From the NCBI GenBank assembly GCA_009838975.1, contig VXQO01000035.1:36828-100827 (forward strand): a stretch of 64,000 nucleotides of DNA. The letters run 5' to 3'. Source of the DNA: Gemmatimonadota bacterium (GTDB lineage Bacteria; Gemmatimonadota; Gemmatimonadetes; Longimicrobiales; Gaopeijiaceae). The notes beneath the pieces are model-generated. The model worked only from the letters and a program-made list of their open reading frames with translations. It was not told the origin of the DNA and ran no database searches. The position numbers were made by a program, and so were the translations under genes. Positions within the stretch are counted from its first letter, which is position 1; every line of letters begins with the position of its first letter. Below, piece by piece: positions 39,624-45,220 of this stretch.

Positions 39624-40535
39624 TCACATGCGGCGCGCCAGCTCCTCGATCAGGTCCGCGTGGCCGCTGGCCGCGTAGGCGATGGTGCCACCCGCGTCGA
39701 TCAGATACACCAGCGCGGGGTGTACGATGTCGCCCGTGTCCGGCACCCGCTGCCGGGCGACCTGCAGTGCGTCCAGTGCCGCGTTCACGCCCTCCACGCT
39801 ACCGGAAAGCAGATAGGTCCGATCCTTCTCGACCGCGTCCGGCGCAGCGAGATGAAACTGGCGCGCAAGCGACGGCAACCTCGCCGGCGTGTCCCTCCAA
39901 GGGTCGAGGGTGATCACCACCAGCGCCACATCGCGCCCCTCGGCGGTGAACCGGTCCTGGACCTGCCTCGCGTTCATGACGGTCATCGGACAGATGGTGG
40001 CACAGTGACCGAAGCCGAAGGTGAGGAGGGTCGGGCGCCCCGCGACACGACCCCAGCCGAACGCCTCGCCGTGCTGGTCCACGAGGTCGACCGGGGGAAG
40101 ACGACGATCGAGGCGCGGATAGGTGGCGGGCACGTCCGCGCGTGCCGTTTCGAGCCACTCCGAGTCGAGCGGGGCACCTGCGACACGCACGGCGGCCAGC
40201 ACCAGGCCGGCCACCAGAACCCCGGAGCCGCCTGCGATCCCGAGCAGCCCCGCCGGGGACGAGAACGCGCGCCGGAGCCCCGCGCGCACGGCATCGCCCG
40301 CGATGACCATCAGCACCGCGAGCATCCCGATCGGCTGCCCCACCAGGAGCAGCCATCCCGATGCGTCCGGGAGCCCGGAGGGGCCCGTGTTGAAGCACAC
40401 CAGGCGGGCGCGCTCCAGCCAGGCCGGGGCGACGCCCTGCACCGGCCAGAGCGCCAGGGCCCACCAGGCGACGGTAATGACGAGCAGCGCCGCAAGGGCC
40501 GCCAGGGCGCCTCGTGCCGAGGATTTCGAGCTCAT
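39624..40535 (-). CDS. SCO1/SenC family copper chaperone with N-terminal membrane region
   Basis: TFGFGHCATICPMTVMNARQVQDRF; ATGA overlap with oxidase subunit I. Confidence 0.9.
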   Translation of the reverse strand: MSSKSSARGALAALAALLVITVAWWALALWPVQGVAPAWLERARLVCFNTGPSGLPDASGWLLLVGQPIGMLAVLMVIAGDAVRAGLRRAFSSPAGLLGIAGGSGVLVAGLVLAAVRVAGAPLDSEWLETARADVPATYPRLDRRLPPVDLVDQHGEAFGWGRVAGRPTLLTFGFGHCATICPMTVMNARQVQDRFTAEGRDVALVVITLDPWRDTPARLPSLARQFHLAAPDAVEKDRTYLLSGSVEGVNAALDALQVARQRVPDTGDIVHPALVYLIDAGGTIAYAASGHADLIEELARRM

Positions 40536-42253
40536 CCCACCTCCCACAGGAACGAAAGCAGCATCCAGTTCACGAAATAGTAGAGGATGAACGCGGCCAG
40601 GAAGATCAGCACCAGTACCATCGTGCCCGGGACCGGACCGAGGCGGCCCGACGGCGGCAGCGCTTCCATGTCCTCCGGCTTTAGCGCGCGCGGCGGATTG
40701 GTGATCCCCGGCGGCAGACCGCGCCCGGTCGCACCAAGGCCGGAGTCGTCGGCGGCCATCTTCCGGCCGAAGAAGACCGAAACCACCGTCATCACGATGT
40801 AGATCGCACCGCCTGTGATCGCGATCAAGCCGCCCACCGCCATGACGCCGATGATGAGGTTGACGGCCGGCGTGAACTCGGGCTGGAAGAGCGCCTGTGT
40901 GAAGCCGATGTCCCAGTGCCGGCGGGGCACGCCGAAGGTACCGGCGAAGGTCATCGCCATCGAGAAGATCAGCATGCCGATCGCGAAGATGTACGGCTGG
41001 ATCCTGGCGAGCGGGTAGAAGGCGATCTCGCGGCGGAAGATGAGCGGAATCACGTAGTAGGTGATCCCCATGAAGGCCATCGCGGTGCCCGACACCACGG
41101 TGGCGTGGAAGTGCCCGGGAATGCGCAGCGTGTTGTGCGCGATGATGTTGATCTGCTCGGTGCCGAAGGTCACGCCGGTGATCCCGCCCACGAAGCCGAA
41201 CACGACGATGGAGAAGGCCAGCGAGCTGAAGCCGGGATCACCCCAGGGCGCCCGCTTGAGCCACCCGAAGAGACCCTGGACGGCCCCCCTGAGTCGCATG
41301 CCGAGTTCCGTCCCGGCGGGAACGGTGAAACCGTGGATCATCGACGCCAGCACCGCCATGTACATGAAATAGCTGGTGTTCCAGACCTTCCACGACGGTC
41401 CCATGCCGGGATCGACCAGCAGGTGGTGCGCCGACGCCATCGAGATGAAGAGGACATAGAGGACGAACGCGGTGCGGCTCACCTTTTCGTTGAGTACGAC
41501 CGCGCCGACCGTGAGCGCCCCGAGCAGATACCAGATGGAGACCATCGCGGCCACGTTGATCTGCTGCGAGGAGTGACCCAGCCCCCACCAGATCAGCCGG
41601 TACACCTGGGCGTCCACGTGCATCAGGTCGAGCGACCAGAGGAAGGTGGGGATGTAGATGATCGCCCCGTGCAACAGCGTGACCGCCGCGATCGCCGCCG
41701 CGGTCAGGGCCCCGTAGGTGACCAGGGGGAGCGAGCCCTCGTAGGCCTTCTCCTTCCTGGCCACCGTGATGATGGCGAAGAAGTGGCCGACCACGGTGAG
41801 CGCCCCGACCGCGAAGAGGATCACGCCGAGGTAGAAGAGCGGGTGCGCCCTCAGCGGCACATACGAGGTAAAGAGGACATCGGCCCGGCCGGTCCACATC
41901 GTCCACTCCACCATCAGCGTGCCCACCACCATCAGCACGAAGGCGACCCAGCCGGTCTTCGGCGCGGGGACCCTGCAGTTCAGCAGCACGGCCGAGGCGA
42001 AATAGAGCACCGCCATCTCGAAGAAGATGATGAAGAAGATGAGCATGTTCATGCCGTGCACGGTCAGCATGCGGTAGAACATGTCCGCCTCGAGCAGGAG
42101 GACGGCTTCCCAGCGCGTCAGAAGCACCAGCACGGCCGCGATTCCCCCGACCAGGAGCGCCACCGTCGCCACAACCGCATTGGCCTTGATCAGCCGGTCG
42201 GCGGTGCGGTGGACCTGGAGCCCCGTGGTCGGACATGTGCGAAAGGCGCTCAT
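40532..42253 (-). CDS. heme-copper terminal oxidase subunit I
   Basis: Polytopic protein with TVHGMNMLIFFIIFFEMAVLYFASA, QVYRLIWWGLGHSSQQINVAAMVSIWYLLG, SAHHLLVDPGM, IAHNTLRIPGHFHATVVSGTAMAFMG. Confidence 0.95.
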   Translation of the reverse strand: MSAFRTCPTTGLQVHRTADRLIKANAVVATVALLVGGIAAVLVLLTRWEAVLLLEADMFYRMLTVHGMNMLIFFIIFFEMAVLYFASAVLLNCRVPAPKTGWVAFVLMVVGTLMVEWTMWTGRADVLFTSYVPLRAHPLFYLGVILFAVGALTVVGHFFAIITVARKEKAYEGSLPLVTYGALTAAAIAAVTLLHGAIIYIPTFLWSLDLMHVDAQVYRLIWWGLGHSSQQINVAAMVSIWYLLGALTVGAVVLNEKVSRTAFVLYVLFISMASAHHLLVDPGMGPSWKVWNTSYFMYMAVLASMIHGFTVPAGTELGMRLRGAVQGLFGWLKRAPWGDPGFSSLAFSIVVFGFVGGITGVTFGTEQINIIAHNTLRIPGHFHATVVSGTAMAFMGITYYVIPLIFRREIAFYPLARIQPYIFAIGMLIFSMAMTFAGTFGVPRRHWDIGFTQALFQPEFTPAVNLIIGVMAVGGLIAITGGAIYIVMTVVSVFFGRKMAADDSGLGATGRGLPPGITNPPRALKPEDMEALPPSGRLGPVPGTMVLVLIFLAAFILYYFVNWMLLSFLWEVG

Positions 42254-42843
42254 CGGTCACCTCCCGCGGTCGAGACCCCGGCCGCCGGCGCGTCCGCCGT
42301 CCCGTCCGCCGGTTCCACGATGATCTTCCCCACCATCAGATGGTGGCCGATCCCGCAGAACTCGTTGCACATGACGTAGAACTCGCCGGGCTCGTTCGGC
42401 ACGATGCGAAGGCCGTAGTCGTAGCCCGGAACGACCTGGAAGTTGATGTTCAGCGGGTACAGGGCGAAGCCGTGGTTGACGTCGAGCGACGACAGGTGGA
42501 GCGTGTACTCGGCTCCCTGGCGCAGCCGCACGACGGGGATCCAGGCGAATTGCGACGCCTGCAGGTAGACGTCGCTTCCCGGCGGCGGCGCCACCACCGG
42601 AAGCCCGTTGTCGGTGCCCACCTGGTGCTCCCGCACGAACTCGGCCACCCTGGCCTGGAAGTCGGCCGGATCCACCCGGTGCCGGATTCCGGATGGGTTC
42701 TGACCACCCCTCAGGTGCCACACGGGCATCATCGCGAACAGGACCATGCACCAGGCGAAGGCGATCCACACCCACACCTTCTCGTGCCGCCCCACCTTCT
42801 TCCACCACACGCGCTCCGGCGGCTCAATTCCGGTTCGGTACAT
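42250..42843 (-). CDS. terminal oxidase subunit II (CuA)
   Basis: N-terminal TM anchor; CuA signature VNHGFALYPLNINFQVVPGYDYGLRIVPNEPGEFYVMCNEFCGIGHHLMVGKI; ATGA overlap with subunit I. Confidence 0.95.
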   Translation of the reverse strand: MYRTGIEPPERVWWKKVGRHEKVWVWIAFAWCMVLFAMMPVWHLRGGQNPSGIRHRVDPADFQARVAEFVREHQVGTDNGLPVVAPPPGSDVYLQASQFAWIPVVRLRQGAEYTLHLSSLDVNHGFALYPLNINFQVVPGYDYGLRIVPNEPGEFYVMCNEFCGIGHHLMVGKIIVEPADGTADAPAAGVSTAGGDR

Positions 42844-42858: not shown

Positions 42859-43053
42859 TTACGGCAGCGGTGCGGGTTCGAGGGACATGATCTCGAGCAT
42901 GCCCCAGGCGGTGAAGAACACGAACATCACCACGATGCATGCGACCAGCAGCAGGAACGGGTTGTCGTAGAGCCGCTGCATGCGAGGAATGGGCGAATCC
43001 CCCGTGCCACCGGCCGGCGGTGGCGAGGAGGATGCTGGCGAGGGTTCGGGCAT
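42859..43053 (-). CDS. putative small single-TM oxidase subunit (IIa/CbaD-like), in-frame internal start within the Rrf2 ORF
   Basis: Internal ATG (complement of 43051-43053) preceded on minus strand by AAGGAG-CGATCC; protein ends MQRLYDNPFLLLVACIVVMFVFFTAWGMLEIMSLEPAPLP; 15 nt upstream of subunit II. Confidence 0.65.
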   Translation of the reverse strand: MPEPSPASSSPPPAGGTGDSPIPRMQRLYDNPFLLLVACIVVMFVFFTAWGMLEIMSLEPAPLP

Positions 43054-43506
43054 GGATCGCTCCTTGTAGGGGGAAACCATGGGCGCCCCCGTCCGGTCGG
43101 GGGCAGGCGGCGAGAGAAGAAGGTCCCCCACCGTCGTTTCGGCAAAAAAGTCGTCTATGGCCTCCCGTACCACGCACCAGCGCCGGTGCGACGCGCACGG
43201 GTTCACTTCCGAGCACTCCGCGCGACCCAGCAGACATCGCCGCTCAGGGCCCTCGGGATCGATCGCGTCGACGATCCGGCCCAGGGGAAGCTCGGCGGCG
43301 GGGACCGCGACGGCATAGCCGCCGCCCCTGCCGCGAACCGCGCGAAGCACGCCGTTCCGGACGAGCCGATGGAGTGTCTTGGAGAGGTAGTTCTGTGGCA
43401 GATCGAGCTCCCGGGCCAGCGCCTTCGCCGAGACCGGGCCGGTGGACTCCCCTTCCGCGATTCGCACGACAGCGCGAAGCGCGTTCCTGGCGGTCTTGGA
43501 GATCAT
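42859..43506 (-). CDS. Rrf2 family [Fe-S] transcriptional regulator; reading frame runs without a stop into the single-TM segment
   Basis: KTARNALRAVVRIAEGES..SAKALARELDLPQNYLSKTLHRLVRNGVLRAVRGRGGGYAVA..GRIVDAIDPEGPERRCLLGRAECSEVNPCASHRRW; the 215-aa frame continues into ...FLLLVACIVVMFVFFTAWG. Confidence 0.88.
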   Translation of the reverse strand: MISKTARNALRAVVRIAEGESTGPVSAKALARELDLPQNYLSKTLHRLVRNGVLRAVRGRGGGYAVAVPAAELPLGRIVDAIDPEGPERRCLLGRAECSEVNPCASHRRWCVVREAIDDFFAETTVGDLLLSPPAPDRTGAPMVSPYKERSMPEPSPASSSPPPAGGTGDSPIPRMQRLYDNPFLLLVACIVVMFVFFTAWGMLEIMSLEPAPLP

Positions 43507-43551
43507 TCCCGCGACCCTCGATCATTTCGGCTGACATCTATTCCAGATAAG

Positions 43552-43562
43552 ATCATGATGAT
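43552..43562. promoter_or_regulatory. ATCAT-G-ATGAT inverted repeat in the Rrf2 / cytochrome b divergent intergenic region
   Basis: Perfect 5-1-5 dyad in an AT-rich island; ATCATGATGATAT here vs ATCATTATGATAT at 8355-8367 (12/13 identical). Confidence 0.5.
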
Positions 43563-43639
43563 ATGGTTATTAATCTGACGCAAGGCATCCAGTATGCGCG
43601 CCTGCTGGTTCCACCTCCGGATTCCCCACAGGATCTGCA

Positions 43640-45220
43640 ATGCTCAAGCGACTGCTCGGACCGGTTCTGAAGCGGACGGACGGCTGGGTCGATCGGCTGT
43701 TTGGATCGAAGTGGAACCCCCTGTACCAGTCCGGCGCCCTGGTGGTGCTGTGCCTCGCGGTCATGCTGGTGACCGGCCTCTACCTGATCTTCTTCTACCG
43801 GATCGGCGCACCCTACGAATCCATCGTGCGGATTGAAGGCCAGCCATGGGGCGGACGCTGGATCCGCGCCCTGCACAGGTACGCCGCCGATGGAGCCGTC
43901 GTCGCGGCCGTCGTGCACGCGCTGCGGATGTTCTGCCAGGGACGATCGTGGGGACCGCGGGCACTCGCCTGGATTTCGGGCGTCTTTCTCGTGTTTCTGC
44001 TCTACGTCTGCGGGTTGACCGGCTATGTGATGGTCTGGGACACGCACGGCCAGCTCCTCGCCACGGAGGGTGCCCGACTCCTGGACGCGCTCCCGCTCTT
44101 CTCCGAGCCGATCTCCCGGACCTTCGCCGGAGCGGACCCGATCCCGTCCGCCTTCTTCTTCATGAACCTCTTCCTGCACATCGCCGTGCCGGTCGGGATC
44201 GTGATCTTCCTCTGGCTGCATGTATCCCGCGTCGCACGTCCGGTCCTGTTGCCGCCGCGGCCGCTGCTGTGGACAACGGTGGGACTGTTGACCGGGGTGG
44301 CGCTCGTCGTGCCGGCAGCGCTCGGGCCGGGCGCCGACCTCCTGCGTCTTCCCGCGGAGGTGACGCTGGACGTCTTCTACACGTTCTGGCTTCCGTGGAC
44401 GCGTTCGGCCGCACCGGGAGTGGTATGGCTCGCCGCCGGGGTGGCGAGTGCCGTTGCCGTGGCCGTGCCGCTCCTGACCCGCCCCCAAGCGGATCGTCGT
44501 CCGGCGCCGTCGTTCGCGTCAACGCGGCTGTGTACCGGGTGCGAACAGTGCTACACGGACTGTCCCTACGACGCCATCCGGATGGTCGACCGGGAGGGCG
44601 GCCGCGAGGGGAAGGTGGCGCTCGTAAATCCCGCAGCCTGCGTCAGTTGCGGCATTTGCGCCGGCTCCTGCGCGCCGATGGGCGTCGGACCGCCGGGTCG
44701 CACCGGCCGTGACCAGTTGAGTCGTGTGAAGGAGTTCGTGCAACGACAACCGGATGCAGGCGAGGACATCGTCCTGGTCGGATGCGGCCGTTCTGCCGCG
44801 GCGGCGTGGGCCGGGGACCACGGCCGCCGATTCCTGGTGTCCTGCGCGGGGAATCTGCACACTTCGGTCGTGGAGTACCTCGTCCGATCCGGCGCGCGGG
44901 GCGTGCTGATCGTCGCGTGCCCGTCCCGCGACTGCTGGGGTCGAGAGGGGCCCAAGTGGCTCGTGGAGCGGCTTTTCCACGAGCGCGAAGCGGAACTGAA
45001 GGCACGCGTGGACCGGCGGCGTGTGCGCGTCGCCCACGCGTCCTCCTTCGACCGGTGGTCGCTTGGGGAGGCCATGGACGAATTCGCCACCGAACTCGCC
45101 CGCCTCGACGCACCGGTCGGAGACGATGCGATCGAGGTTGAAACGGAATGCGACCTTGCGGAGAGTTCCACGCCGCAGGACTCGCCGCTCCCTCGCCCCG
45201 GGCACACCTCCGGCCCATGA
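43640..45220 (+). CDS. cytochrome b (N-terminal diheme domain) - 2x[4Fe-4S] ferredoxin - MvhD/FlpD-like iron-sulfur domain fusion
   Basis: Bis-His helices ALHRYAADGAVVAAVVHALRM and NLFLHIAVPVGIVIFLWLHVSRV; CTGCEQCYTDCPYDAIRM and CVSCGICAGSCAPMGVG; MvhD-like VSCAGNLHTSVVEYLVRSGARGVLIVACPSRDCWGREGPKWLVERLF. Confidence 0.88.
   Translation: MLKRLLGPVLKRTDGWVDRLFGSKWNPLYQSGALVVLCLAVMLVTGLYLIFFYRIGAPYESIVRIEGQPWGGRWIRALHRYAADGAVVAAVVHALRMFCQGRSWGPRALAWISGVFLVFLLYVCGLTGYVMVWDTHGQLLATEGARLLDALPLFSEPISRTFAGADPIPSAFFFMNLFLHIAVPVGIVIFLWLHVSRVARPVLLPPRPLLWTTVGLLTGVALVVPAALGPGADLLRLPAEVTLDVFYTFWLPWTRSAAPGVVWLAAGVASAVAVAVPLLTRPQADRRPAPSFASTRLCTGCEQCYTDCPYDAIRMVDREGGREGKVALVNPAACVSCGICAGSCAPMGVGPPGRTGRDQLSRVKEFVQRQPDAGEDIVLVGCGRSAAAAWAGDHGRRFLVSCAGNLHTSVVEYLVRSGARGVLIVACPSRDCWGREGPKWLVERLFHEREAELKARVDRRRVRVAHASSFDRWSLGEAMDEFATELARLDAPVGDDAIEVETECDLAESSTPQDSPLPRPGHTSGP

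Follow-up and report, generated by a model that had tools for sequence, protein, structure and literature searches.

Does a regulator gene that runs without a stop codon into the gene of a small membrane subunit encode a sensor built into an enzyme, or a coupled pair of genes for which the separating stop has become dispensable? The question is raised by a 64,000-nucleotide stretch of a Gemmatimonadota genome (the window), in which a sequence-only reading had noticed an Rrf2-family regulator gene open across an internal ATG at position 43053 into a 64-aa product with one transmembrane helix, encoded 15 nt upstream of subunit II (start 42843) in the order IIa-II-I, and had proposed that this one gene yields, by internal initiation, a terminal oxidase subunit and, by continuous translation, a membrane-tethered redox sensor. 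The layout of the locus was borne out in full: the frame is an uninterrupted ORF on the minus strand, the internal ATG follows AAGGAG at a distance of 6 nt and is part of a start site kept in all relatives compared, and the one-helix product, its spacing from subunit II and the gene order are as described (Table 1). Below we argue that the locus is probably a coupled Rrf2/IIa pair that heads an eNOR-like operon, with IIa made from its own start and the fused tail on the regulator tolerated.

Table 1. Features of the Rrf2-IIa locus and its surroundings (positions in the window)
Feature	Positions	Strand	Remarks
Rrf2 + linker + subunit IIa ORF	42859..43506	-	215 aa, ATG start, no internal stop
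Rrf2 domain, aa 2-130	43117..43503	-	Pfam PF02082, E 2.7e-26
Candidate [Fe-S] ligand Cys cluster C91-x6-C98-x5-C104, then C111	43195..43236	-	9/9 fused proteins
Linker, aa 131-151, Pro/Ser/Arg-rich, unconserved	43054..43116	-	
AAGGAG Shine-Dalgarno of IIa, within the Rrf2 frame	43060..43065	-	6 nt before ATG 43053
Subunit IIa ORF, 64 aa, aa 152-215 of the fusion	42859..43053	-	from internal in-frame ATG
IIa transmembrane helix, aa 183-206	42889..42960	-	hydropathy; helix in low-confidence AlphaFold2 model
Subunit II (CuA)	42250..42843	-	best PDB match 1ehk_B, Thermus ba3 subunit II, E 3e-19
Subunit I, B-family heme-copper enzyme, Gln231 at cross-linked-Tyr site	40532..42253	-	eNOR signature
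SCO1/SenC copper chaperone-like protein	39624..40547	-	Pfam PF02630, E 3.5e-26
Cytochrome b + 4Fe-4S + FlpD-like fusion gene, divergent	43640..45220	+	conserved operon partner
Operator-like element CATATCATCATGATCTTATC, imperfect dyad	43546..43565	-	single copy in genome
CTTGC element, possible -35 of Rrf2 operon	43580..43584	-	22/22 aligned promoters

The enzyme encoded by the operon

Subunit I is nearest in the PDB to the B-family enzymes of Aquifex and Thermus and contains the His-ligand motifs for heme and CuB (LTVHG, GH, AHH and PGHFH). However, the cross-linked active-site tyrosine of the ba3 oxygen reductases is replaced by glutamine: Q231 aligns with the active-site tyrosine of the Aquifex ba3 enzyme (H227-S-S-Q-Q231), and the motif GHSSQQ is found in every relative whose sequence spans the active site. 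Glutamine in this position is the mark of eNOR, as opposed to oxygen reductases and other NO reductases (PMC8756737). A canonical COX1 is encoded elsewhere in the genomes of the genus (L108-L115), the GHPEVY motif having been read in other species, and the window's own genome encodes an additional COX1 that falls into the same score class. The enzyme is therefore probably an eNOR-like NO reductase, with the small protein as its IIa, and not the terminal oxidase of the initial description. Generic models score the eNOR-like subunit I as cytochrome c oxidase subunit I, and eNOR-type genes are often labelled cytochrome c oxidase (PMC8756737).

The match to eNOR as defined in PMC8756737, based on sequence motifs, extends to the His motifs, the glutamine and the cupredoxin subunit II beside subunit I, but the locus described here adds IIa and the upstream Rrf2 gene. 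With the ba3 operon cbaDBA of Thermus and Aquifex, it shares the IIa-II-I order and a one-helix IIa upstream of a one-helix subunit II (PMC3128077) but differs in the lack of the active-site tyrosine and of PXGT before the IIa helix. More specifically, IIa has the placement of CbaD, a single helix encoded directly upstream of the one-helix subunit II, and the tryptophan of its helix is present and invariant, whereas the PX1-3GT/A motif that should precede the helix is absent. The Pro-18-Trp spacing of the helix is, we presume, the same as in Thermus IIa. The divergent cytochrome b/4Fe-4S/FlpD gene, possibly an electron-transfer module, accompanies the operon across the phylum. Neither NirK nor NosZ was found over the cut-off in the genus, which would fit removal of NO rather than full denitrification.

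Distribution of open and closed frames

Among the 23 genomes sampled from the genus, 16 encode both Rrf2 and IIa, and the frame is continuous in nine of these (G000, G015, G013, G016, G007, G011, G022, G012 and G002). A stop codon between the two ORFs in relatives, which the sequence-only reading itself took as an observation against its proposal, precedes IIa in the remaining seven, namely, in G020 (TAG, with IIa in the same frame) and in G009, G005, G014, G006, G018 and G017, where IIa is in another frame. A stop is likewise present in the species L052 and L053 of a neighbouring genus and in all outgroups from the family that we examined, and elsewhere in the phylum, loci with the Rrf2–IIa–II–I order also have stops. 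This patchy distribution notwithstanding, the fusion is the predicted product in nine species if the Rrf2 start is used because no stop intervenes.

Deletion of the stop by an assembly error, another reservation of the initial description, might be suspected: the close relatives that could be identified by name are Gemmatimonadota genomes assembled from metagenomes, some of them from presumably sponge-derived sets, and the rest of the comparison set is probably of metagenomic origin as well. However, the open frame is shared by nine distinct species-level genomes that stem from several projects and have differing linkers, with length steps of 3 nt, and its recurrence in eight species of the genus besides that of the window indicates that it is not a sequencing error; we consider the probability of such an artefact negligible.

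In the tree of the operon genes, in which some nodes are weak, the fused species form four groups (W/G015/G013, with W denoting the window; G016/G022/G002; G012; and G007/G011) that are interleaved with unfused species. A single clade of all fused species is ruled out by this topology, and the fusion state appears to be labile; the tree would fit equally well one ancient gain followed by several losses or several gains. A search for further Rrf2-IIa fusions of independent origin in the rest of the phylum gave candidates with long open frames (L092-L103), but each of these either terminates ahead of IIa or does not belong to the operon. The arrangement is a real, reproducible, lineage-restricted variant of a coupled gene pair.

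The internal start, the linker and the parts of the fusion

The Rrf2 domain scores 92.7 bits against PF02082 (cut-off 30) and 97.6 bits against the NCBIfam model TIGR00738 (rrf2_super; cut-off 73.3), with C91, C98 and C104 as candidate [Fe-S] ligands, and the 64-aa product contains one hydrophobic helix, with the Kyte-Doolittle maximum of 2.6 at aa 184-202. The AlphaFold2 model of the fusion, with a pLDDT of 48.6, was too poor for a fold search. From arginine residues before the helix and acidic ones behind it, the N-terminus is predicted to be cytoplasmic, which would keep a fused Rrf2 domain on the same side of the membrane as the DNA, where binding could still take place.

The IIa start codon is conserved in fused and unfused relatives alike, and a Shine-Dalgarno-like purine stretch is retained in 18 of the 18 species compared. 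In the stretch from the linker to the start, only G140, E149 and M152 are invariant among the nine fused proteins; the E149 codon forms part of the Shine-Dalgarno motif, and the IIa start codon encodes M152, as maintained internal initiation predicts. The mean energy of the Shine-Dalgarno duplex is -8.2 in the fused compared to -9.5 in the unfused species, and slightly weaker versions (AAGGAA or GAGGAA) are found in G016, G002 and G007, which amounts to no more than a weak trend towards relaxation. These weaker sites, the absence of the stop in nine species and the failure to detect a second IIa-like match in G000 could be taken to mean that the fusion is the sole product, serving as both regulator and IIa, with internal initiation being unimportant. 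Under this scenario, however, conservation of the ATG and the Shine-Dalgarno-like sequence in all species would not be expected, and subunit stoichiometry would demand as much regulator as enzyme, so we regard it as unlikely.

In most pairs of fused species, the pN of the linker is close to its pS (0.19/0.15 for W-G013 and 0.21/0.19 for G016-G002, the exception being G007-G011 with 0.07/0.18 and six differences in all), so no purifying selection on the linker as a protein is seen, with the proviso that some 21 codons lend the comparison low power and that sequence conservation is not required of a disordered linker. By the same measure, the Rrf2 domain (pN/pS 0.01-0.11/0.09-0.33) remains under purifying selection, and the values for the IIa core are very low. 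A low-complexity Pro/Ser linker, modelled by AlphaFold2 without secondary structure (at low confidence), could also be the site of proteolysis that separates Rrf2 from IIa and makes the fusion a transient precursor, but the linker sequence is not conserved and no cleavage motif was identified in it; accordingly, this possibility appears very slim.

Chance openness and the effect of the frame

The open frame is not an improbable coding accident because stop-free spacers are common and one in three frames coincides. Shuffled spacers lacked a stop in 53–100% of the cases, the chance for the GC-rich spacer being 0.61-1.0, and in simulated neutral evolution, the probability that at least 9 of 10 in-frame spacers are open was 0.23-0.57, depending on the rate; openness is thus compatible with chance. 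What stands out is the difference between the frames. The spacer is open in nine of the 10 species with IIa in frame, whereas in all eight species whose IIa frame is shifted by 1 or 2, a stop precedes IIa, even though shuffled spacers are stop-free in 53-82% of the cases. When counted by group, four of the five in-frame groups and none of the five out-of-frame groups are open (one-sided Fisher test, ~0.024, the independence of the groups being uncertain). The simplest reading is that out-of-frame run-on is harmful and in-frame run-on is tolerated.

Under the coupled-pair explanation that we favour, Rrf2 and IIa would be translationally coupled, with free IIa initiated at its own Shine-Dalgarno sequence and ATG, as in the unfused relatives, and with translation from the Rrf2 ATG continuing through the linker and IIa, which are thereby appended to the regulator; both products would, presumably, be translated. 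Where the frames coincide, the intervening stop would be dispensable and the subunit tail on the regulator tolerated, in keeping with the purifying selection on the Rrf2 domain and the retained operator-like site, whereas read-through out of frame would not be, hence the retention of the stop in the offset-frame species.

The same data bear on the proposal that the locus makes two purposeful products, IIa on its own and a fused Rrf2-IIa protein that, residing in the membrane or the enzyme, would keep the sensor attached to the complex under its control. The fusion would be obligate whenever Rrf2 is translated, the predicted N-in topology of IIa would leave Rrf2 in the cytoplasm, a stop is rare among the in-frame species, and fusions of IIa to other proteins are known, as discussed below; moreover, retention of the in-frame state in several diverged species could reflect selection for the fusion. 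However, seven species of the same genus do without it, the linker is unselected, the neutral simulation does not reject chance, and the operator-like site (see below) is the same in fused and unfused species. We therefore consider dual products of this kind improbable, and the claim of a purposeful membrane-tethered sensor is not supported, given the stops in relatives, the lack of purifying selection on the linker and an openness that is compatible with chance. Less probable still is the more elaborate version in which Rrf2 is an N-terminal extension of IIa within the NO reductase that reads the state of the enzyme it controls, with internal initiation setting how much of the enzyme is tagged.

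The promoter and the regulator

The main conserved feature of the divergent promoter, compared across 22 species, is a block around CATATCATCATGATNTTATC with CTTGC upstream. At up to three mismatches, this block occurs once in the genome of the window, at this locus, and the operator-like site is retained whether or not a species has the fusion. In G010 (L059), the operon is kept but Rrf2 is lost, and the block is degraded. The palindromicity of the site is not by itself significant, with 243 of 2000 shuffles reaching the same level, so the argument for an operator comes from conservation and single-copy occurrence, which, along with the degradation in the Rrf2-less G010, support, without proving, a dedicated local Rrf2 regulator.

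The Rrf2 protein falls under the NCBIfam cut-off of every named equivalog, including NsrR (NF008240, 26.3 bits against a cut-off of 182). NsrR is an NO sensor of the Rrf2 family and, by analogy, the location of an Rrf2 gene on an NO reductase operon suggests a repressor that responds to NO or redox state; it may regulate its own operon via the operator-like site, with NO as the signal. As in other regulators of the family (IscR, NsrR, RirA and CymR), there is a winged helix, a three-Cys cluster and a dyad-like site in the presumed target promoter, but the Cys spacing is x6/x5 and, in nine species, a C-terminal helix is present. The C-terminus of Rrf2 is variable, as seen in L094 and L096, from another family of the phylum, where the operon-type Rrf2 has long basic low-complexity tails (KRPATKRPATKRP; AKKAAARSS). 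Separately, L099 (G398) contains, from position 1369 and outside the operon, an ORF for a 295-aa Rrf2 protein with an additional C-terminal domain of about 150 aa.

Relation to known systems and implications

Fusions of IIa are not without precedent: halocyanin-IIa fusions have been described in haloarchaea and IIa-II fusions in two-helix subunits (PMC3128077), indicating that an N-terminal extension of IIa is not forbidden. In these proteins, as in the locus described here, the IIa helix belongs to a larger polypeptide, of which it forms the C-terminal portion in the halocyanin fusions; what sets the present locus apart is that IIa is joined to a transcription regulator and keeps its internal start. 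If the fusion exists, it would share a cytoplasmic DNA-binding domain and a single helix with the membrane one-component regulators of the CadC/ToxR type, the difference being that the helix is an enzyme subunit and is not followed by a periplasmic sensor domain. In the open-licence papers searched, we found no description of an Rrf2 fusion to a membrane subunit.

One genus thus holds the same two operon genes separated, offset in frame and fused in frame, a natural series in which the steps from a coupled pair to a fusion can be directly compared. Because eNOR genes are often mislabelled (PMC8756737), the re-identification of this operon as eNOR-like, together with its dedicated Rrf2 gene and the single candidate operator, should be useful for the annotation of Gemmatimonadota. 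A fusion that proved functional would amount to a sensor integrated in the very enzyme it targets.
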